This document shows positions 46,629-63,443 of a DNA stretch of 64,000 nucleotides, in pieces. The notes under the pieces are model-generated. The model searched no databases. It saw nothing but the letters and a program-made list of their open reading frames with translations, and had not been told where the DNA came from. The stretch's first letter is position 1; the number at the start of each line of letters is the position of its first letter. Source of the stretch: Brachionus manjavacas (Eukaryota; Rotifera; Eurotatoria; Ploima; Brachionidae); NCBI GenBank assembly GCA_019054805.1, contig JAHQIY010000003.1, forward strand, positions 8,370,001-8,434,000, written 5' to 3'. The position numbers and the translations under genes are program-made.

Positions 46629-47531
46629 TTAAGAATCGATAGCTTCCTCATTTTCATCTTCTTCATCGTTTTCTACAAAGCTCTCCTCTTCTTCGTAGTC
46701 ATCATCCTCAAAATTTGTCTCCGCATCACCGAAATTTGTCATTCTATAGAAATTTCGTCGAAATTTTACCAAATCCCCCCACATTAAATGAACTTTACAT
46801 TTTAAACAATCGCCATCGACTGGCAACAATTCTGATCCAGTCAAAATAATAAAGTTATTAGACAAGCAAATAGTATGATATGGTACCAAACAATTAATGC
46901 ATTTTAAACCAGCTAAATTTTTATTTAAAACATCCTGACTCGATTCCAGAATATTCTTTTTACAAATAAAGCAAACATCACTCAGACTCTGAACCTGTGA
47001 CATGTGAATTTGTTCGTTCTCTATAGCTAGTAGTTTTTTGCTTTTGGACTTGGGTACAATTTGAACCAAGCCGAATTCTACCGGCATATGAGCAGGAGGG
47101 AGTTTATTTAGAGGAAACTCTTTTTTGTATTCTTGTCTGAGCCATCTAACTGTGAGCGGAAGTCTACACCAAGGTCCTAAACGCAACATTTCGCAAACCA
47201 CATTAAATTTGGAAATAAAATTATATTGCTTGGTCGTGGGTACCAAATGCTTTAATCTTAAGGATTTTTCAGGATTTTGCCAAGCCCACTCAAAACGCAG
47301 CGCTGATATTTCATTTGGAAATCCGTGTATTATAAGGACCATATCCCATGGACCTTTACCACTTGTCCTTTTGGCACCACCCTTAGCATATCCTGAATTG
47401 TGTTGATTAATACGACGATTCGGATTGACTGTGAATCCTATGTAAGTTCGACCTTTATATTTTGGATTTGTACTGCATAGCAAATAACAACCAAAAAATT
47501 TTCCTTCTTCAAATATATGAGAATTTGTCAT
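46629..47531 (-). CDS. SLX1: structure-specific endonuclease subunit SLX1
   Basis: The intronless gene encodes 300 residues from the ATG at 47531. The N-terminal GIY-YIG nuclease domain (about residues 8-95) shows GCYLLCS (the GIY position), TYIGFTV (YIG), the catalytic Arg region in NPNRRINQHN, GGAKRTSGKGPWDMVL, and the metal-binding Glu in LRFEWAWQNP. A C-terminal RING/PHD-like zinc finger (about residues 185-255) has CFIC, CINC, YHTICL and CLKC, followed by WGDLV. A strongly acidic tail ends the protein. SLX1 with its partner SLX4 cuts branched DNA, including Holliday junctions, in the nucleus. The length is near that of animal orthologues (about 275). BLM-type helicase genes lie just upstream. 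An ATTTTAG acceptor-like site is 17 bases before the ATG. Confidence 0.96.
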   Translation of the reverse strand: MTNSHIFEEGKFFGCYLLCSTNPKYKGRTYIGFTVNPNRRINQHNSGYAKGGAKRTSGKGPWDMVLIIHGFPNEISALRFEWAWQNPEKSLRLKHLVPTTKQYNFISKFNVVCEMLRLGPWCRLPLTVRWLRQEYKKEFPLNKLPPAHMPVEFGLVQIVPKSKSKKLLAIENEQIHMSQVQSLSDVCFICKKNILESSQDVLNKNLAGLKCINCLVPYHTICLSNNFIILTGSELLPVDGDCLKCKVHLMWGDLVKFRRNFYRMTNFGDAETNFEDDDYEEEESFVENDEEDENEEAIDS

Positions 47532-48142
47532 TTTTATCAAAATTACTAAAATTTGTAAAATGATTTAAAAACGAGTTAATTTTTTCCAATCCTAAAATAA
47601 AAAATATTAATTCACAATTTGAAAAAAAATATTCTTTAGAAAAAAAATTTAATTCTTCAAATCGGAAATTAAATTTTCAATTATAATTTTTCTTATTTTA
47701 AAAACATTTAAGGAAATAATTCTTGAAGATTTAGTATCATTCAGTTTTGAGAATGTTAAAGGATAAGTTAAAATTTTTTTCATGAGTTAAATATTCAGGG
47801 ATTTTAATTTTATAGAAAAGTATTAATCAGTGTAAATAAGATTTTAATTTTAAAAAGAAGTCATTTATTTATTTTTATCTAACAAATCATTTTTTGGCTA
47901 AAATTATATTAAAAATGTCACAAAATATTTTTTTTTTAATTCTTTATTTTTTTCAAAGGTCTTTTATCTATGTATTTCAAATAAAAGATTTGAAAAAAGA
48001 CTTAAATTAACTTGAATTTTACAAAATTCTGATTTAATAAAAAAAGCTTTCTTTTTCAGTTTTTAATTCTCAAAAATTCTTGTTTTCAATGAAATTTACA
48101 TTAAAAAATGAAAAAATGTTACTTTAAACTTAAACTTTTGAT

Positions 48143-49715: not shown

Positions 49716-52700
49716 TCAAAACTTTTTCTTAAACTTGGCTTTATTTTTGAAGTAAAATTTCTTTTTTTGATTCGAATTAAAATAATTGCTCGTATTCTCA
49801 TCATTTGCATCGTACGAGGTCTTAGCTTTTTTATTGCTTGGATAATTCTTGGAAAAATTCTTGCGCTTATAATTCGTTTCCTTATATTCTGAATTACTGG
49901 ACTTGCTATTCAGCCACTTTGATGAATCAAAATCTATGTCTCTCACCTGATTCTCGTCAATTAATCCATAAGTTTTGTTATTTCTGTAGCAAGCTTGAGA
50001 TTGAACGGCTCGGGCTTTGGCTTTTTCTATTTGTTTTTGTTCCATTTTTTTAATTTCCTCTTGCTGAATTTCTCTTTTTATCTTGGCATAGTGTTGAAAT
50101 ATGGTCAAAAACTCTTCTCCCTTATAGTTATTGAATACAGAGTGAGTGTAGCCAGTGATGCCCAAGAGATCTTCCTTGGTCTCTGGCAAACGCGTCAACA
50201 TTTCACTCAACATTTTTGGCGTAAACAAGCTGCTCATGTTCTTGACACCTTTTTCGTTACCAACTGTTTTTATGAGACGTTTTATGTCACTTTGGCATCT
50301 GATCAAAATTCGATTAATCGCTGATGAATCGCTAAGTTTGGTGTTTTTCTTAGCTTTTGATGTGTTTTGGCCATCGTCCGATTCTGAATCATCAACTACA
50401 CTGCACTTTTTGGGCACTTTTGTTTCATCATCGATTAGCTCAAATTCAACTTTAGTACCTGAATTATTGAAAAGCTGTGTTGCTTTGGGTCCTAGTTTTA
50501 TATAAGAAGCCATTGTGTCTGAATGTTTTAAAATTTTTACATCCTCCTTTAAAAATCCTAAAAAAACTAATTTTCTGACTATTCTTTCAATGTCATTTTT
50601 TTTGTATTTAGACAGTTTAGCATGCATTTCCAAATTTTGATGACCTTTTTCTGTTATTTTGGCGTTCATTGAGCCTTTGAGTATTTCGGATAAATGGAGC
50701 AAAGTAATGTCATTCTTGACCGAAAGTTGCTGAACTCCTCTGCATATGATGGTTGCATCGGATGTAATATCGACCAGAGAACACTTATTTCCCTCAAATA
50801 ATAGACAATTGTCACAGATGGTTTTCATTTTTGACTCGATGCATTTTCTTCTGTCAAACTTTTCACCAAAATACTCGAGTATTTGAGCTCTACGACAGTC
50901 TGTGCGATTGTCACAATACTGAGCCATTCGGTAAATATTGTCGATATGGGTTTTGTGAGCAACAGGGTTGTAATTGGGCTCTTTTTGTATATTCTGCATT
51001 AAACGCAGCCATTTGTGTCTGTCTTGATTGTTGTAGAATAGCAAGCATAAAGAAACAGCACCATCTCTGCCCGCTCTGCCTGATTCTTGATAATAGCCCT
51101 CTAAAGACTTTGGAAGTCCTAAATGGACAACATAACGAACATCTCTTGTAAACAAAAAATTATTCAAAGTAATTTAGATGGTTTTGTGATATAAAGAAAA
51201 AATTCAAATAAAATAAACAATCTTTTATGCTTTTACAATTTTTATTTTTCTTTTTCAAGCAATATTTCAAGAATATTTAATTTAATTAATTCAAAATTAT
51301 TCAATTCTTTTGTTTAACATTTACTTTTTGCTCTAATTTATGTGTTTTTTCAATTTTTAAAATAATCAAAAATAACTTTTACAAATTCCGAAATTAACGC
51401 TAATGTGGCTGAAAGGGAGAATTAATATTCATTCCAAACAGCCAGGGAATTTTCCCAAATTATTTTTTAAATAAATAAATAAATAGATGGTTTTGTGAAA
51501 TTCAGTAAAGAGAATAGAACAGAATGATGAAAATTTTTTTTCTAGGCATCGTGAATTTTGATTCATAAAACAAAAATAAAAAATAAAAATTTCCAAAGCT
51601 TAAGTTCTGTTAATTTTAGGAACTGATACATCCTCTGTACCATCAATATACTAATTCTGAAAAGTTCTGCAAAATTTATAATATCTCAAATTCGTAATGA
51701 ACTGAATTCTACAAATTTAATTGTAGAGTTCTGCAGAATTGGTATTTTGGTGCTTCAGAGTATGTATCAGTTTCCACAACATATCGGGCATGGTTTTGTC
51801 AGTCAGGACCTTTAGCTTTGGAATTTTTTAAATCCTGTTTTTGCTTCCAAAATTCAAAATGATGTAAGTTTATTTAGCAAATTAAAAAAAAAAAATTAAA
51901 AGATGAAAATAATGACTGAATTCTAAAAAGCAATATAATGATAAAGCCAAAGCAAGTTCGATTTTTACAGACTTGTTTTTAAGTCACAAGTCTTAAGTCA
52001 AGTCAATTCAATGGCCTAAAATTTTTTTTTAATGAAATAAATTTCTAAATAAACCATGATCTTAAAATTATATCGGTCAGAGTTATCTGCATTTATCCAT
52101 AAGGTTAAGCCTTCAGACAAAAATATATTTCGTTGAATAACACACATTTATTAATAGGTGATAGATTTCTTAAAGAAATAGAAATCAATTTTTTAATATT
52201 CTATGATTTTTGTGATTGCTAATTATAAAAAAAAATTTAGTTCAAGTAATAATTTTGACTTAAAAAAATTAAAAAAAAATTTTGTTAAAAAAAAATTTAA
52301 GTCAAGTCATAACTTTGACTTAAATTTTTGTGAATTAGAAAACTGTGACTTAAAAACAAGTCTGGATTTTTAAAATTTAAAGCTACGTCAAGGTTTTTCT
52401 TAAAATCGATCCCAAAAGAATCTTTAATTATTAGAAAAAAGTCTCTAAAATTCTGAAAATTCGAGCCAATACTTTATTAAACTCTGATTATGAAATATTC
52501 AAAGCAATGGAACAAAAAATTCTAAAAACATAAAAAAAATAAAATGATTAAAAATTTTTGGGTATAGAATTAGCAAAAAAGTTGTTTTTGGAAATTAGTG
52601 AAAATTAGAAAAAAGATTATTTAGCGTCGATCAACAGTAAATTCAGCCACGCTGATCAAATTTAATTGGATTCAAAAGGTAAATTTTTTTACTTAAAAAA

Positions 52701-55700
52701 TCATTATTTCTAAAATTATATTAGCTATTTAAAAAAAATTATTCAATTTTTAGTTTAAAGCAGAGAAAGGTATTGAAATTTTTTACATATGTTTCTGAGA
52801 AAAAAGCCGATTTGTTTAATAAAATATAAAATTTTTAAATCGACTCGTAAAATAAGTGATTGTAAAAATTAAAAAAAATAATGTAAACTCATGCACTGTA
52901 AATCAATAATCAAGTCGTATAAAATATTTAAAAACCAAGGAATTGGAAAAATAAAAAAACTCACGGTTTATCAATGCCCATTCCGAAAGCAATAGTTGCA
53001 CAAACTACTTTACAATCAATATTATTTGTCCATTTGTGCTGAATTTGCTGACGTTTCTGGTCATCCATTCCAGCATGGTACGGCAGCGCTTTTATTTGTT
53101 TTTTCCTCAAATACTCGCTCACTTGTTCACACTCATTTCTCGAAATGCAATAGACAATTCCACTTTTGTTCGCATATTTGCTTTTGATCAGCTCAGATAT
53201 TTTCTCCAAAGCAGCTGGATTGCTAGTCTTGTATTCGACCTGATACTGCAGATTTTCTCTATTAAAACTTTGCATGAAAAAAACACACTTTTGGTTATTT
53301 GTGGGCAAAGTGTTCATGCTTACTGACATGTACTGTCTATTGTTCAGCTTATTCTCCAATTTGTTCATCTGATTATTCTGAACATTTGTCACAAACGCAC
53401 TCTTGAAGGCCGAGCTCTTTAGCGAAGCTGTTTCGCTCACGCTCAACTTCATCTGCATCAAAATGTCGTTTCGCACTCTTGGTGTCGCAGTGGCTGTCAA
53501 CAGCATACATGGAACATTTGGCATCAGTGTGAATCTCAACTCGCCCATTTTCTTGTAATCTGTGCGAAAGTCATGACCCCATTGGGACACACAATGAGCT
53601 TCGTCAATTACCAATCTTGCTATCATGCCTCGATTGTACAAGTTTGTTACCACATTTCTCAATTTTGTGCTGTTGTTCAACTTTTCCGGTGTAATGTAAA
53701 CAAGTTTGTACACTGGCTCTTGTTTGACCAATTCCTTGTAAACATTATCACATTCGGACGAGTCAACGTCACTCAGCATGTGACATGCACTCAGTCCCAG
53801 AGCGTTCAACTTTTGCACTTGGTCAATGATCAAACTTTTCAGTGGTGATACCACAAATGTCACACCTTTGGATATGACTGCAGGCAACTGGTAGCACAGT
53901 GACTTACCGCCTCCAGTTGGCATCAAAATAAACACATTCATTCCCAGCAAAGCTGCATTTACTGCCTCGAATTGTTGCGGACGAAAGTGCTTTAGACCGA
54001 ATGAGTTGCGGAATTTGGTCAGCATTTCGTCTGTATGCTCGTATTCCACTGATCTAAACTCATACGAGCAATCTTTGATATCATTAAACAGCCAGTTTAT
54101 TTTTTCATATTTTTCTATTTCAGGTATATAGACACCTTTTGTTTGCTTAGTATTTGACATTAGATCATTTTTGTTTCCAGGATCAATTGAATCAAAATCA
54201 AAATCTTCGATGACGCATAAATCGTCATCATCTTCATCATCATTGATTTCGCCATTATACTCTTTATAATGTCTGCTTCCATCTTTTTTTTCAATGGGTA
54301 TTTGTGTTGATGTATTATTCAATGAGTTGAAATCCTGTTCAAGTTCTAAAACTTCAATGTCATTATTTATCTTTCTTTCTTCTTTTTTAAATTCTTTTGA
54401 TATTTTTTCAGCATTTTCGAATTCTTTAAAACTTGATTTTACTTTTATTGGTTTTAAGTCATCAAGTTGATCTTCATCAGAGTTAAACGATGCATTTTTT
54501 TTTCTCGATGACAGTATGATCGGTGAATCAGGTATTATATCAGGCATTTTCTTTATTGGAGTTTCCAAAATGCTTTCCATTACGTGTTTAGAAAGACCAG
54601 TTTCTTTTATTATCGTTTCTTCACAAACAACGCATTTCACTTGCTTCATTACGCAACTGAAACAAGCTCCGTGACCACAAGCATCTATGAGACGTCTTTT
54701 AGGTCCATTGGTATATTTGAATTTACATGATGGACAGAATTCTTTGTGATCAATTGATGACTCAAGTGGTTGAATATTTTCAATTGGAATCTTTTCATTT
54801 TTTATTTTTTTGAAATTTTTTGAAGGTGATGGTTTTTGGCCATAAGTTGATTTTTCAGGCTGATGTAAATTTTTGTTTATTGCTTTGCAAAAATCCTTTT
54901 CATCCTCTGGTTCAAATTCCAAATTTTCAAACTCAGATTTTACAGTTTTGTTTTTAATTTCAAAAAATGGATGCAAATTTTGTGATTTACCATTCGTTTG
55001 ACATGTTTTTTTCTTTAATGTATTTTGATCTTCATTTTCCAAATTTGATATCAACTCGGACCCAGATTTGTTGCTACTTTTACTAATTAGAATATTTATC
55101 AATTAAATTTAATTTTTGTTTGAGAAATAATGCAATTAATTTTTGATATTCTAAAATATTTTAAAAATATTTTATTTTAAATTGATTGAAAATGAAATCA
55201 AGACCATTTATGAATTTGTGTTTGTAATGAGTTCGCTTAAAAACTTAGAGGTGCAAAAAATGATACAAAAGTTGAAAATTGGATTTTACTTTCTATACTT
55301 TTTTTTAATTTATCGTTAAGATTTAGGTAAGGAAGGACATTCTTTCCGTACTTAAACTGTACTTTAATTGTACTTTTTGTACTTTTTAAAAATAATTTTA
55401 TTAAAAAAGAAAACACATCCTTTCTGTTCTTTTGTAAACAGGGTTCGGGCGGAGCCCTGGTTTAGGGATTAGGGGATGTTAAAGATAAGATAAGTATTTA
55501 TTTAATTGAAATTAATGTTTAAAATATAAATAAATATGAAAAAGAACAGAAAGCCTACAGTCCTGCTATGATTTTATGTTTTTACGTAGTTTCACGTAAA
55601 TTACATTTATTAATTTTGAGTTTTTGTTTATTGTTTAAAATGTACTTTTTTAAAACATGTTCAAAATTTACTTTTTTTTACTAAAAATTACCATTTTCAT

Positions 55701-57348
55701 ATAAAATTCCACGTAAAATTACGTAAAAAAAAGTAATTTTTTCTTTCCGAATTCAGGCACAAAAAATTTTAAACAAGTCAAAAAATGTCAAAAAAATGTA
55801 GTTTTTTTTTCGAATTTTTACTTTTTACAAAAATTTACGTAATTTCCGGAAATTTTTCGTTAATTCAGGTAAAATATACTTTTTTTTACTTTGTTATTTT
55901 ACGTAATTTACGGAATGTCACGTAAAATTACGTAAAAACAGAAAATCATAGCCCTACTGTAAAAACCAATAAATTTAGATAAATTTCTTATTAACAAAAA
56001 TCTTGTCTACAAAAGAACTTTAATTTAATATTTTTCAAATTTTTACATATTTTAATGACCAAAGAAATCAATTGCTGAACGCGATTTCAATATGATCTTT
56101 TTTGATCATAAAATTTACTATCAAAAATAAACCGATGAAGTAATAAGATCAGTGGGTCATAAATTTGACTGGTCTCAAATTTCAATTTATTGTTGATTTA
56201 TTTTTTAAATTTAAATTCTTTTTTTTCTTTTCATTCTTATTAGACTGGGACGGTAATAATAAAAATCCTTCTCATAATCTTAGCTGTTCATCTCTCCATA
56301 ATCTCTAAAATTTTCAGAAAACAATTATAAATATAAATAAGTTCTAGAGAAACAAGTATTTTTAAAAAATCCTGAACTTTACAATAGTTGAGCTCAACGA
56401 GATTTGTATAATATTTAATTTAAATAAATTATATAAATTCAAATTAAACTCTGGAAGTCGCTTTTAGTGGTTTCAACATTATCTTTTAAAATAATTAGCT
56501 TTTAATATTTTTTGATATCTTTATCAGGAAATATTCTTCCGTTATAAATATAGGCGCAACTAATCCTTGCGATAGTTAAAAGATTACTAATGATCATCTT
56601 TATTCTATAACCTTATTAAATTTTTTTTTATAATTAATATTTTTAAAGTTATCAGTTATTTTTTATTTTACTTTATTTAATAAAATATAAATGAATATTT
56701 GTTTTATATATTTTAATTTATTCCAGAAAAAATTTTAATTAAATTTAAATTCCAATTGCTTTTTACTGTATTCTAAAGATGATAATTTTAAAAGCTAACA
56801 TTTAAAACTGGATACAAAAAAGAGGAAAAAAGAACTGTATAATTGGTTATGTTGATTGAATCAGCTGATAAATTCATATTATCATCTAAAATTTTGCTTT
56901 TAAAAAAATTCCATAAAATACACTTGCACAAAATAAGAATTCTTCTTATTTATTTAATTTTATTGCTGTTTTAGATTCTAAAACTCAAAAACCAATTTTT
57001 TTTTTTGAGTTTTTGTTAAAAATTATTTTAGATTAGCAAATTTTCAAAAACTCAAAAAAAATTTTCAATAAAGAATCTAGAGACTATCAAAAATATTATT
57101 TATATCGTTTAAAATGTAAATTTTACTTACCTTGAATGAAAACCGTTATCTGAAGAGTATGTATTAAGCAAATTAGGCGTACTTGATGCTGATTGAGAAC
57201 AATTTTTATCATTTGTTTTGGTCAAAATGTTGTTATTGGTAATGCTAGGGGTTGTAATAGCCGAAAGAGAACAAGACGACAAGAAAAAATTCTTCGAAGT
57301 CTCTGTGGCAGATTTTCCCGGTTTTTTAAAAGTAAATTTTCTTTCCAT
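49716..57348 (-). CDS. BLM-type RecQ helicase with N-terminal RING finger (intact copy), 3 exons
   Basis: Exons 57348-57131, 55082-52965 and 51144-49716 join in phase to 1254 residues. The N-terminus MERKFTFKK resembles that of the paralogue. A C3HC4 RING-like finger follows (about residues 189-226: CPSC, CGHGACFSC, CVVC). An acidic, Ser-rich linker leads to the RecQ core: FRPQQ (motif 0, about 439), MPTGGGKS (Walker A, about 460), DEAH (about 566), LTATATPR (about 601), then GIVYCISRNE and the [19 protein letters not shown] and QESGRAGRDG motifs. An insert of about 45 Asn/Ser-rich residues separates the helicase lobes. The RQC zinc site (CRRAQILEYFGE, CDNC) and an HRDC-like domain (LLGITGYTHSVFNNYKGEEF) are present, and the tail is Lys-rich. 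BLM unwinds recombination intermediates and dissolves Holliday junctions in the nucleus. The core 52930-54229 duplicates the other copy. Confidence 0.92.
51619..51775. repeat. 157-bp element with imperfect inverted ends, in RecQ intron 2
   Basis: The ends GGAACTGATACAT and ATGTATCAGTTTCC are inverted, and further blocks (CTAATTCTG / CAGAATTGG, GTTCTGCA / TGCAGAA-like) pair inside. Its size and structure fit a small MITE. No flanking duplication is evident. It lies in the intron between exons 2 and 3 of the minus-strand RecQ gene. Confidence 0.65.
51968..52364. mobile_element. hAT-type MITE, CAGA-TTGTTT family, copy 2
   Basis: The 397-bp element has inverted ends CAGACTTGTTTTTAAGTCAC and its near complement (GTGACTTAAAAACAAGTCTG). 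An exact 8-bp duplication GATTTTTA flanks it (51960-51967 and 52365-52372). It shares the AAGTCACAAGTCT/AAGTCAAGTC subterminal block with the element at 14488, so both belong to one family. It sits in an intron of the RecQ gene and has no coding capacity. Confidence 0.9.
52930..54229 (-). repeat. inverted 1.3-kb identical tract, arm A (RecQ intact copy)
   Basis: This segment is the inverted copy of 58365-59663. By eye every compared stretch is identical, including synonymous positions and about 35 bases of the following intron. The exception is six A's here against five in the other arm, at about 53095-53100. Identity starts at GATGACGATTTATGCGTC and ends at CTTGGTTTTT. Outside, the two genes differ strongly. 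Confidence 0.9.
55083..57130 (-). other. intron 1 of the intact RecQ gene
   Basis: A 2-kb intron with GT-AG borders (donor GTAAGT at 57130-57125 and acceptor CTAATTAG before 55082). It holds the TA-flanked MITE at 55558-55959. Near 55320-55550 are GTACTTTT repeats and a GC-rich GGGTTCGGGCGGAGCCCT hairpin of unknown origin. No other exon is recognised. Confidence 0.6.
55558..55959. mobile_element. MITE with TA duplication, TTACGTAA-rich
   Basis: The 402-bp element has inverted ends: CAGTCCTGCTATGATTTT on the left and, read inward from the right, CAGTAGGGCTATGATTTTCT. Both continue into TGTTTTTACGTA. Flanking TA on both sides (55556-55557 and 55960-55961) suggests a Tc1/mariner-type target site, though two bases can match by chance. 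The interior repeats ACGTAA motifs. It lies in intron 1 of the minus-strand RecQ gene. Confidence 0.7.
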
Positions 57349-57605
57349 TTAAAAGGAAAATATTTACAAATATTGACTAAAATTTATTAAAAAAGTATCA
57401 AATAATTTTTATTTTTGTTCTGAAATAATTTTCTAAAATTTTTGAATTATGAATAGTTAATTGTGCTAAGACCAGAGCTTTATTTATTTGAAGATTAAAT
57501 TTTTTTGAAAATAATCTAAAAAATTAGCAAAATTTTAAATTATCTATTAATCCAAAATTAATTAAATGAATTAGCATTCGAATTTTATCCAAATAATTTT
57601 TACCA
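57349..57605. promoter_or_regulatory. shared 257-bp divergent promoter region of two RecQ genes
   Basis: The start codons at 57348 (-) and 57606 (+) face away from each other over 257 bp. Any core promoter for both genes must lie here or overlap their first exons. An AATTTTAG acceptor-like site on the minus strand at about 57380 lies some 30 bases before the minus-strand ATG. No TATA box or palindromic factor site stands out. Confidence 0.6.
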
Positions 57606-58364
57606 ATGGATCGTAAATTCAAATTCAAAATATCGACTTCAAATAAAAGTTCAATTGTATCAGATTTAAAAGAAGATTCAAAAACAAATGGTTCGCAAAG
57701 AAAAAATTTGTCGAATGACTCCATGTTGGGAAACAATTTTATCAAAAAAAATGAAAATTGCAAAAATGATAAAATAAATGACAATTGTCTAAAAATAATT
57801 GATCAAAACATTATAAATCGGGATCAAAAAGAGCCAAAAATTAATGAGAAAGGCAATTTCGATGATGATTGGAATGGGGCTAAATTTAACATTAATGAAA
57901 ACATTCTTCCAAAACCAATTGCCACAGTTAAACCATTTATGTAATTAAAAAAAATCTAAAATTAAAATAACTAAAATTCTCGTTTAAGAAAAGTGAAAAA
58001 TTTTAAAAGTGATTTCTTAACAAATGACACGCAACAACAAAATGAAGATGATGATAAATTAATATGTCCTTCATGCAAATGTAGCTACAGTTCGAGAAGT
58101 ACAAAACGAAGATTAGTAGATGAATGTGGACATGCTTCGTGTTACAGTTGTATAGTGAAAAAAGTACCATGCAAAAAATGTACCTTGGAAGCAAACGACT
58201 CAGATGAGTTGGAAATAGATTTTCGTCGAATTGACGAAATTGAAAGAAAAGCAATTGAAAATAAAAGAAATGATAAAATATATGAAAAAATGGAAGAAAA
58301 AAATGTGAATAAAATAGAGAAGCTATCAAAATTAAAATTAATGAATTCTGTAAATGACAAAAAC

Positions 58365-59663
<1,299 letters not shown>

Positions 59664-59793
59664 TTAAAGAAAATATTTATTGACTATATAAAGATTTAGC
59701 CATATTTTTTCTTTGATCTCTAATTTTTTGCAATTTTTTAATTCATTCTTCTTCTATTTTAAAATTTAATTATTTGTTTTCAATCTTAAATTA

Positions 59794-59990
59794 GAGCCCG
59801 AGCCGAAATGTTGGCGTGTTAGTCATTCAAGCAGAGGATCGAGGGTCCAAAACCCGCTGAGGGTGAAAAAATCTTCAAAATATCTCTGTAATTCTGACGA
59901 ATGTTTAAACCCCTTTCATCATAAAAAATAGGGAGATCGGTTGAGACTGGGTAATAATTCCGGTGTAGATGATCAACTCTATGCAGGAAC
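59794..59990 (+). mobile_element. SINE-like dispersed repeat, copy 2, in RecQ intron
   Basis: It lies in the intron between 59628 and 60185 and is clearly richer in G+C than its flanks. The head (59794-59865) has TTGGCGTGTTAGTC and GAGGATCGAGGGTCC, which loosely recall the A and B boxes of a tRNA promoter. The body from 59860 matches the minus-strand reading of 14047-14275 (AAAAATCTTCAAAATATCTC, CTTTCATCATAAAAAA, GACTGGGTAATAATT, GGTGTAGATGATCA). Two separate copies with such a head fit a tRNA-derived SINE. Confidence 0.6.
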
Positions 59991-61448
59991 TTTAATTAAG
60001 TTTCAGGAAAACTAAGATGGTCCCTTTAAGTGACAAGTTAATTACTGTTTTGCAATTAAAATTTATTCTTATTTTGTTCTTTGTTTTTTTATAAATATGA
60101 AAATTTTTCTGTTCGTAAATCATTGAAAAAAAAATATTTTTTTAAACATTTAATGAAAAAATTAATTTTATTTTAATTTTCTAGAGATGTTCGATACGTA
60201 ATTCACCTTAGTCTTCCCAAATCATTAGAAGGCTATTATCAAGAGTCCGGCAGAGCTGGCCGTGACGGGTCAAAGGCTTTTTGTGTCTTATTTTACAATA
60301 ACCAAGATAGACAAAGATGGCTTCGTATTATTTCATCTGAATTCCAGAACAAAAACTTATCAGCTTTTCAAACACATGTAGATAACATTCATCGTATGGC
60401 TCAATACTGTGACAATAAGACAGATTGTAGGCGAACCCAAATTTTGGAATATTTTGGTGAAATTTTTGACCGTGTTAAATGTATTCGTTCCAATATGAAC
60501 ACAATATGCGACAATTGCAAGCTCCTTGAGACCAAAAAATCAAAAACAATCGATATGACTGAAAAAATAAAACTAATTTGTAATTCAATCAAAACAGTCT
60601 GTTCTCGTGAGGACCTTACATTGCTCCATTTGGCAGACATACTAAAAGGTTCATTTAACTCCAAGATAATTGAAAAAAATCATCACATCCTGGAATTTCA
60701 TTCTAAAATGGATGAATTTAAAAAATGTGATATTGAAAGACTTCTAAGAAAGCTTATTTTCTTAGGATATCTTAAAGAAGAGCTTAAAGTAATTAAAAAT
60801 CCGGACACTGTTGCGTGTTATGTTAGACCTGGTCCAAAAATGTCACAAGTTTTTAGTGGCAAAAATTTTAAATTTATGTTCGAGCTGATAGAAGATGAAA
60901 TAAAACCTAAAAAAAATGCTGAATCTAGAATGAAATCTGATAAAAAGGATTCTGATGATAGTGATGTTGAAGAAATATTATATGATAATGAGCCAAAAAG
61001 TAAACAAAAATGTTCAGAAGAGTTAAATTCAATTTTGAACAAATGCAAAAGTGATCTAAGACGATTGATAAAATCCCTTGGTGTCGAGCATAAAATAGAT
61101 AATGTCAATTTAATTTTTACAAGAAAAATGATCTTAGAGATGCTCTCTCAGTTGCCTACTGACAAAGAGACCTTGCTAGGTATCACAGGCTATACCGAAG
61201 CAATATTTAATAATTATAAGGGAAATGATTTTCTGAAAATATTTCAACACTATTCCAATTTAAAGGCTTCAATTGAGACCAAAAATGAGGCTAGTTTTAA
61301 TGTTCGTTCAAATGTAGTTAATGAATGCCAAGAAAACTTCGGGTCTAATCAATGGTTGAATAGCAAAGATAAATCAAAGTATAAAAGAAAAACTGGCTCA
61401 AATGATCAATCAGTAAAAAAATCAAAAATTAAAAGTTTTTTTAGGTAA

Positions 61449-61752: not shown

Positions 61753-61870
61753 AAATTCAAAGTACACTTTGTATTATTCAATATTGCCTATTTCAATAAG
61801 GCTAACATTCTAAAATATAAATAAAAATTTTTGAAATTATTATTTATTATTTAACTTTCTTTTTTTTTTG
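61753..61870 (+). repeat. 118-bp direct repeat, left copy (LINE target-site duplication)
   Basis: It runs from AAATTCAAAGTACACTTTGT to the T10-G at 61870 and is repeated exactly, by eye, at 63444-63561. The two copies lie immediately on either side of the LINE insert. Confidence 0.9.
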
Positions 61871-63443
61871 ACGACGTATTTGCTAATCTATACGAAAGCG
61901 TGTTACTTCAACAAATAAGAAAAGAATACGAAAACCACGAAAACCAGTTTGGGTTCAAAAAAGCATCGTCTTGTCAGCACGCAGTGTATACACTAAAGCA
62001 TGCTATTGATACCTCAAAAGAACAGGGAAAGCGATTGTATATATGTGCAGTAGACGCATCCAAAGCTTTTGACAAAGTCAATAGAAATATACTCTGGCAT
62101 AGAATGTTGAAGTGTGGAATACACCCAGCCGTAGTATTTGCCACAATGATTTATTATGACGAATCAGGTATGATAGTTGTAAATGACAACGAATATTCAG
62201 ACATTTTTGGAACTGACGTAGGTGTAAGACAAGGAGGACCTCTATCCCTGAACTGTTCTCAATATACATTGAAAAATTAATTAATAGAGTAAAAAGCTCT
62301 AATTTTGGGTTAAAATTTAAGTTTGGCAAACTAGAGATAATAGGCTGCGGACGATATATTGATTATCAGTCAAACAAAGAGTGAACTGCAGAAGCTACTC
62401 AAAATAGTAGAAAAGGCTGGGCAAGAGCTAGAAATCAAGTTTAATGCAAAGAAGACGAACATCATGATTTTCAACCAAAAAATTAAAAGGACCGCAGAGA
62501 CCAAAAGAGAAGATGCATGGCAGGGAGATTTAATCCTAGATGGTGAAGTTGTACACCAAGTAAATGAAATGAAATACTTAGGCATTGAAATAAATGAGAA
62601 CAATAAAAACAAGACGCACCTAGACAAAAGGAAAAGGCTAGCCATGGGTGCAGTGATAAAGCTTAAATCAATTGGAGTATGGTCTGAGCACACAAACCCC
62701 TATCTTAAGGCGCACATCTATAAAACGTACATCAGGTCTGTATTAATGTATGGACTTGAAACAATTGACTTGAACAAAACAGAGACTAACGATATCAGGC
62801 GAACAGAAGGAAACATGATTAAGTCAATGATTGGCATATCTAATCGTTGTAGAACAACAAATCTCTTACTAGCACTCAACATCACGGATACCACCACACA
62901 TATGGAAAACCAAAAAACGGAATTCACAAAACGACTATGTGAAAATGATCTTACTAAAAAAATAATATCCGACATAATAGAGGGAGATACGATAAAAGAC
63001 ATGTGGAAATGTACAGAGCTCATATTCGATGAAGAAGTAAACACATTAAGCGAACTAATACTCATTTGTAATATATCCAAATATATCAATGACACCGAGG
63101 TTAAAGCTAAAAAGTCAAACGAAGTAGTAAAACGCATAAAAATTACATTCAAAGAGAAGAACCAACAAAAGATGACAGAGAATCTGTTTGAGTTAATTAA
63201 GTTTAAATAGAAGGATAAAAACCACTCGCGCCAAGAACGATGAACTTAAGTACTTAATTTTAACCGCTTTTTATTAATTTACTCAATTTTCCTATTAATT
63301 TAGTTATTTCATTACTCAATTTATACATATTTTTTATCTGTAAATTAATTTTTAAATTTAAATTCGAAGGGGCTATACTTTATTTAACGGGATAGTCCGA
63401 CAAGTGGTCGGTTGAGCGACCTTTTAACCAATAAATAAATATG
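61871..63443 (+). mobile_element. 5'-truncated LINE (non-LTR retrotransposon) with frameshifts
   Basis: The 1573-bp insert encodes reverse transcriptase from the QFGFKKASSCQHAVYTLKHA block through VDASKAFDKVNR (first catalytic Asp) to GVRQGGPLS. Just after GGPLS a base is lost. About 120 bases later two more bases are missing at the start of the catalytic ADD box, which restores the frame (62359-63210: ISQTKSELQKLLKIVEKAGQ, MKYLGIEINEN, SVLMYGLETI). With two frameshifts the copy cannot make an active enzyme. The 3'UTR contains a GGTCG-GTTGAG-CGACC hairpin (about 63409-63424) of the kind some LINE enzymes recognise, then an (AAAT)-like tail. A 118-bp direct repeat flanks the insert. Confidence 0.88.

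Follow-up and report, generated by a model that had tools for sequence, protein, structure and literature searches.

A RING-type finger on the N-terminal arm of two head-to-head BLM-type helicase genes in the rotifer Brachionus manjavacas: a docking module rather than a ubiquitin ligase?

In the rotifer Brachionus manjavacas, two neighboring genes appear to place a RING-type zinc finger and a BLM-type RecQ helicase in one polypeptide. This raises the question of whether the finger is a RING and of what it could bring to the helicase. The window analysed here is a stretch of 64,000 nucleotides (assembly GCA_019054805.1, contig JAHQIY010000003.1, positions 8,370,001 to 8,434,000 of the forward strand), and all coordinates refer to it. 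All six target and amplicon oligonucleotides published for B. manjavacas vasa and mlh3 (PMC10395877) have exact matches in this genome, arranged as the amplicons require, the two guide targets being compared with their synthesis tails removed; the DNA is therefore that of this rotifer or of a very close one. Both genes of the pair, arranged head to head, encode BLM-type RecQ helicases, with start codons at 57348 (minus strand) and 57606 (plus strand); the gap between them is a possible two-way promoter shared by the pair. With exon models derived from sequence alone for both genes (Table 1), the three exons of the minus gene join into a single open product of 1254 amino acids. The plus gene follows the same plan, with an additional upstream intron of 48 nucleotides (57941-57988) that the minus gene does not have. 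Upstream of a tract that is near-identical between the genes, exon 2 is open over 284 codons in the minus gene and 125 codons in the plus gene, and base shuffles of these stretches were open in 0 of 20,000 cases each.

Table 1. Features of the BLM-type gene pair (window coordinates).
Feature	Position	Strand	Basis or remark
Minus BLM gene, exon 1, start MERKFTFKK...	57131..57348	-	ATG; GTAAGT donor; in phase with exon 2
Minus BLM gene, exon 2: linker, RING-type array, acidic/SIM-like stretch, RecA lobes	52965..55082	-	713-aa open stop-to-stop frame; DEAD and Helicase_C; RecQ family TIGR00614
Minus BLM gene, exon 3: helicase core end, RecQ zinc-binding, RQC, HRDC-like	49716..51144	-	Pfam; human BLM best PDB match, 150 bits
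Gap between start codons, 257 bp	57349..57605		Start positions
Plus BLM gene, exon 1, start MDRKFKFK...	57606..57940	+	First 8 residues resemble minus copy, 6/8 identical, E 0.27
Plus BLM gene, exon 2: array and helicase core	57989..59628	+	Frame broken at 59490-59501
Plus BLM gene, exon 3: helicase core end, RecQ zinc-binding, RQC, HRDC-like; open	60185..61448	+	dN/dS about 0.24 vs minus copy
RING-type array, minus copy, C-x2-C-x15-C-x-H-x2-C-x2-C-x6-C-x2-C	54623..54736	-	Pfam RING models below cut-off; 22/28 PDB profile hits RING proteins
RING-type array, plus copy, C-x2-C-x16-C-x-H-x2-C-x2-C-x6-C-x2-C	58065..58181	+	Residues 138-176
Near-identical helicase-core tract, minus side	52930..54229	-	Reaches 35 bases into intron 2
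Near-identical helicase-core tract, plus side	58365..59663	+	
A-run one base shorter than in minus copy, then in-frame TAA	59490..59501	+	A-run 59490-59494, stop 59499-59501

Other elements lie close to the pair. An SLX1-like endonuclease gene (46629-47564, minus strand; GIY-YIG and SLX1_C above cut-off) is found about 2 kb past the end of the minus BLM gene, so that two enzymes of branched DNA are adjacent. Intron 2 of the plus copy contains a dispersed repeat (59796-60035) with 87 to 90 percent identity to 39 other places, among the 40 scored of 815 candidates; given its tRNA-like box, it may be a SINE. Just downstream of the plus gene, reverse-transcriptase frames (RVT_1) in two pieces (61855-63210) perhaps belong to a non-LTR element.

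The assignment of the helicase to the BLM type, made in a previous sequence-only reading of this DNA, was borne out. In a PDB comparison of the minus gene, human BLM was the best match of the front half (352.6 bits, the next RecQ reaching 241) as well as of the back half (150 bits, against 77 for the next other RecQ). The helicase frames of the pair match RecQ family models (TIGR00614, 362 bits for the minus gene), and the RecQ zinc-binding (PF16124, 54 bits) and RQC (PF09382, 65 and 72 bits) domains are above the Pfam cut-off in both genes. HRDC (PF00570) scores 20.1 bits in the plus gene and 16.3 bits in the minus gene, under the cut-off of 23.8; in the minus copy, the alignment to BLM continues through the HRDC region. 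The RMI1_N_C domain (PF08585) is found above cut-off at two loci of the same genome, a count in which RMI1 and relatives sharing the domain are not distinguished. The minus gene has some 60 extra amino acids between its RecA lobes (53267-53440 on the minus strand; in the 713-aa frame, about residues 555-612), and the matches of this gene to solved RecQ helicases are split in two around this stretch.

On the 1254-aa product, the cysteine-histidine array sits at residues 189-226, where the sequence-only reading had placed it, and in both genes it shares an open frame and an exon with the helicase core, as had also been claimed. When either N-terminal region was shuffled 100,000 times, a C3HC4 pattern never arose, and the array is thus not due to chance. 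It has moreover been kept while the surrounding linker diverged, as previously noted: 21 of its 38 residues are identical between the copies, against 56 of 193 in the remaining N-terminus. When the two N-termini were compared by blastp, the array was recovered with an E value of 2e-14, the first eight residues with 0.27, and three further pieces with 2.2 to 9.3. No other segment of the N-terminus is clearly common to both copies. A nonsynonymous difference as low as that of the array was seen in 55 of 2000 randomly placed 38-codon windows, which overlap the array itself; synonymous sites between the copies are saturated. A six-frame protein search of the 114,169,980-bp genome, which is no proof of absence, gave no other clear match to the array beyond the two BLM genes, the third place having an E value of 0.108.

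Is the finger a RING? Both copies have eight ligands with the spacing of a C3HC4 RING. No curated Pfam RING model scored above its cut-off, either with the isolated minus array (best 20.4 bits, against 25.2) or with longer queries of either copy. A profile made from the two array sequences and run against the PDB retrieved RING proteins in 22 of 28 hits, by our own sorting on molecule names and domain content, the best being MAT1 (E 0.0043); the RING of RNF4 is also among the hits. AlphaFold models of the array are of low confidence (pLDDT 66 and pTM 0.46 for the first, pLDDT 54.6 for the second). The best Foldseek match of the first low-confidence model is the RING of TRIM32 (E 0.24), and in the structure searches (Foldseek, VIA), FYVE, PHD and ribosomal zinc folds score close to RINGs, the nearest rows being RING, FYVE and TFIIH p34/p44.

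Alternatively, the array could form another kind of two-zinc or treble-clef finger, similar to FYVE, PHD or ribosomal zinc folds, which would bind DNA, lipid, histone or protein and would only look like a RING. Such a finger would agree with the sub-threshold RING scores, with the FYVE and TFIIH p34/p44 rows that rank level with RINGs by structure, and with a basic KRRL stretch that both copies have between C2 and C3. It is less easily reconciled with the C3HC4 spacing, which fits the RING pattern, with the predominance of RING proteins among the PDB profile hits, and with the name RING-Ubox superfamily given in print to the domain of Adineta vaga Blm (PMC6264785). We consider a non-RING finger improbable. 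The array is best read as a RING-type finger, on evidence that is modest given the Pfam scores and the weak AlphaFold models. The earlier proposal that both copies have kept a RING-type array in frame with the helicase stands as to spacing, frame and conservation; the array is RING-type by pattern only, with Pfam scores below cut-off.

Would such a finger act as a ubiquitin ligase? In active RINGs, E2~ubiquitin is contacted by a hydrophobic residue before C2 and by a proline after C7. A basic linchpin residue after C8 makes a further contact (PMC12326332; PMC11992055). None of the three marks is present in either array, the minus copy having S, V and E at these positions and the plus copy S, K and T; a fourth position, C6+4, outside this count, is occupied by Q and K in the two arrays. 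Among 26 control RINGs from the same genome, a set biased toward the top-scoring hits of one Pfam model and including some near-identical copies, 20 carry all three marks, five carry two and one carries none (hydrophobic before C2 in 24, proline after C7 in 23, basic residue after C8 in 23). The set derives from the first 43 of 99 listed PF13445 hits: two with internal stops and one near neighbor were left out, and of the 40 regions fetched, the 14 that did not have the full pattern were dropped. The RINGs of RNF4 and RNF111 possess the E2-binding residues. In RNF38, a charge-swapped Glu linchpin is reported to have severely disrupted E2 binding, while XIAP is described as an active RING with a Tyr linchpin, in which Glu was weaker than wild type, not called dead (PMC12326332). 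TRIM32 is likewise described as active with Ser at this position, and TRIM6 and TRIM22 as RING pseudoligases that have lost E2~ubiquitin contacts including the linchpin (PMC11992055). The rotifer finger resembles the latter two as a RING without these contacts; they are TRIM proteins whose inactivity was measured, and the rotifer finger is likened to them by its residues.

It could nevertheless be imagined that an active ubiquitin ligase has been fused to BLM, the finger recruiting an E2 and a nearby SIM-like stretch making of the protein a built-in SUMO-targeted ligase, acting on BLM itself or on its neighbors at branched DNA. In human cells BLM is ubiquitinated by the RING ligases RNF4 (PMC8633118) and RNF111 (PMC10542384), which are separate proteins, unlike the fused rotifer finger. 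The RNF4 hit in the PDB would also agree with an active ligase, as would the SIM-like stretches that a simple uncalibrated pattern of our own detects in the minus copy (e.g., DDDDLCVIED from residue 361). Active RINGs without a basic linchpin do exist, as the TRIM32 and XIAP examples indicate, and TRIM32 is among the nearest matches of the array. Against this stand the absence of all three marks from both copies and the presence, in the minus array, of the residue that was so damaging in RNF38. In addition, the SIM-like stretch sits at the edge of the converted tract (see below), so that its identity between the copies shows nothing, and the same uncalibrated pattern detects no SIM-like stretch in the plus N-terminus outside the tract. 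A fused active ligase is therefore possible but rather unlikely. Ubiquitin ligase activity of the array is unsupported and the residues lean against it; with the usual E2-binding residues absent, a pseudo-RING is the more probable reading of the finger, ahead of an active ligase. The idea of the sequence-only reading that the fusion may couple helicase loading to ubiquitin signaling is accordingly weakened, with no E2 mark in either copy and Glu or Thr after the last cysteine, and the absent contacts are a warning against annotating the finger as a ubiquitin ligase.

The two genes had been described as divergent copies. This holds outside a tract of about 1300 bp covering the helicase core but not inside it, where the copies differ by two substitutions, both of which leave the protein unchanged, and one A; the tract ends were set where mismatches become dense, and the array lies outside. 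In exon 3, 217 of 414 residues are identical (dN 0.43, dS 1.81), which indicates that, as judged from substitutions, the copies are old outside the tract and that exon 3 has long been under purifying selection. A whole-genome DNA search found the tract at these two places only. The occurrence of a near-identical 1.3-kb tract amid old, diverged copies indicates recent gene conversion of the helicase core as the simplest cause. It may be observed that this conversion would have occurred inside a gene whose own product controls recombination. As to its direction, GC at four-fold third positions is 57/142 in the tract, close to minus exon 3 (55/146, p 0.72) and different from plus exon 3 (31/126, p 0.009), making the minus copy the likelier donor; the direction is only suggested, the minus N-terminus (23/108, p 0.0017) differing from the tract and the plus N-terminus (15/53, p 0.14) not. 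Alternatively, the identical core could be an artefact of assembly, favored by arms that form inverted repeats 4.1 kb apart. Such a collapse would require real identity beforehand, two silent substitutions separate the copies, and the contig number (61 for 114 Mb, this one measuring 9.76 Mb) suggests a long-read-style assembly. We regard an artefact as quite improbable, and gene conversion is retained.

The single A that differs in the tract has a consequence for the plus copy, the product of which, as assembled, stops short of completing the second RecA lobe. This one-base change in an A-run, with the premature stop that it creates, would fit a plus copy that is a decaying pseudogene, leaving one working RING-BLM. 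Exon 3 past the break is open over 423 amino acids, and its dN and dS values relative to the minus copy argue against decay. Because the break lies within a tract that shows only three differences from the other copy, the frameshift is a young lesion or an assembly error. A decaying plus copy is a serious possibility to which we give somewhat less than even weight.

What, then, would the finger do? For a finger that lacks E2 contacts and yet is kept on an otherwise poorly conserved arm, a role in docking or pairing is the best reading. It can be proposed that the array binds two zincs and forms a zinc-stabilised module for docking or pairing (homo- or hetero-dimer) of the BLM complex. Vertebrate BLM has an N-terminal dimerisation region, the role of which the finger would fill, while the DNA-processing part would work together with RMI1-type partners, as it does in BLM proteins generally. 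For this reading as a whole, a RING-type finger on the poorly conserved N-terminal arm of two old head-to-head BLM copies that serves docking or pairing rather than ligation, we see the chances as evenly balanced. A broader version, which we advance as a quite speculative and improbable extension, is that a BLM pseudo-RING replaces the vertebrate dimerisation region as a pairing or docking module throughout rotifers. In this version, repeated gene conversion would keep the helicase cores of the gene pair alike as the RING and RQC/HRDC ends drift apart, and the pair would form mixed complexes with a common motor and different ends. CRISPR editing has been published for B. manjavacas (PMC10395877), and the function of the finger is thus testable in an animal.

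This architecture can be compared with several known systems. With human BLM and yeast Sgs1 (RecQ, RQC, HRDC), the rotifer proteins share the helicase core and the RecQ zinc-binding and RQC domains, along with an HRDC-like region that scores below the Pfam cut-off; we know of no RING in human BLM or Sgs1. In Rad5, a RING and a DNA translocase are found in one polypeptide. The same combination is described for HLTF, with a HIRAN domain and a SWI/SNF helicase (PMC4666394). HLTF and Rad5 are SWI/SNF rather than RecQ enzymes and their RING is a PCNA poly-ubiquitin ligase, so the likeness is one of way of working only. The closest precedent is the bdelloid rotifer Adineta vaga, whose five Blm copies are all reported to have an N-terminal RING-Ubox domain (Hecox-Lea and Mark Welch, 2018; PMC6264785). 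The sequence-only reading had known of no BLM protein with such a finger; this novelty did not hold, the fusion having been in print for A. vaga since 2018. In the same report, copies C1 and C2 are described as having a conserved RING and fast-changing flanks, and a figure legend names Bloom-like helicases from Dictyostelium, Triticum, Symbiodinium, Stentor and Daldinia (PMC6264785). B. manjavacas shows the rotifer RING-BLM architecture, its array being RING-type by pattern and likened to A. vaga through the published description, and this extends the architecture from a bdelloid to a monogonont rotifer. The fusion may predate the split between the two groups and may have been kept in sexual and asexual rotifers alike. 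In both species an N-terminal RING-type domain is carried by a BLM-type helicase present in several copies; A. vaga has five, with HRDC detected in only one (PMC6264785), whereas B. manjavacas has two head-to-head copies with RQC in both, an HRDC-like region below cut-off, a converted core and a frameshift.
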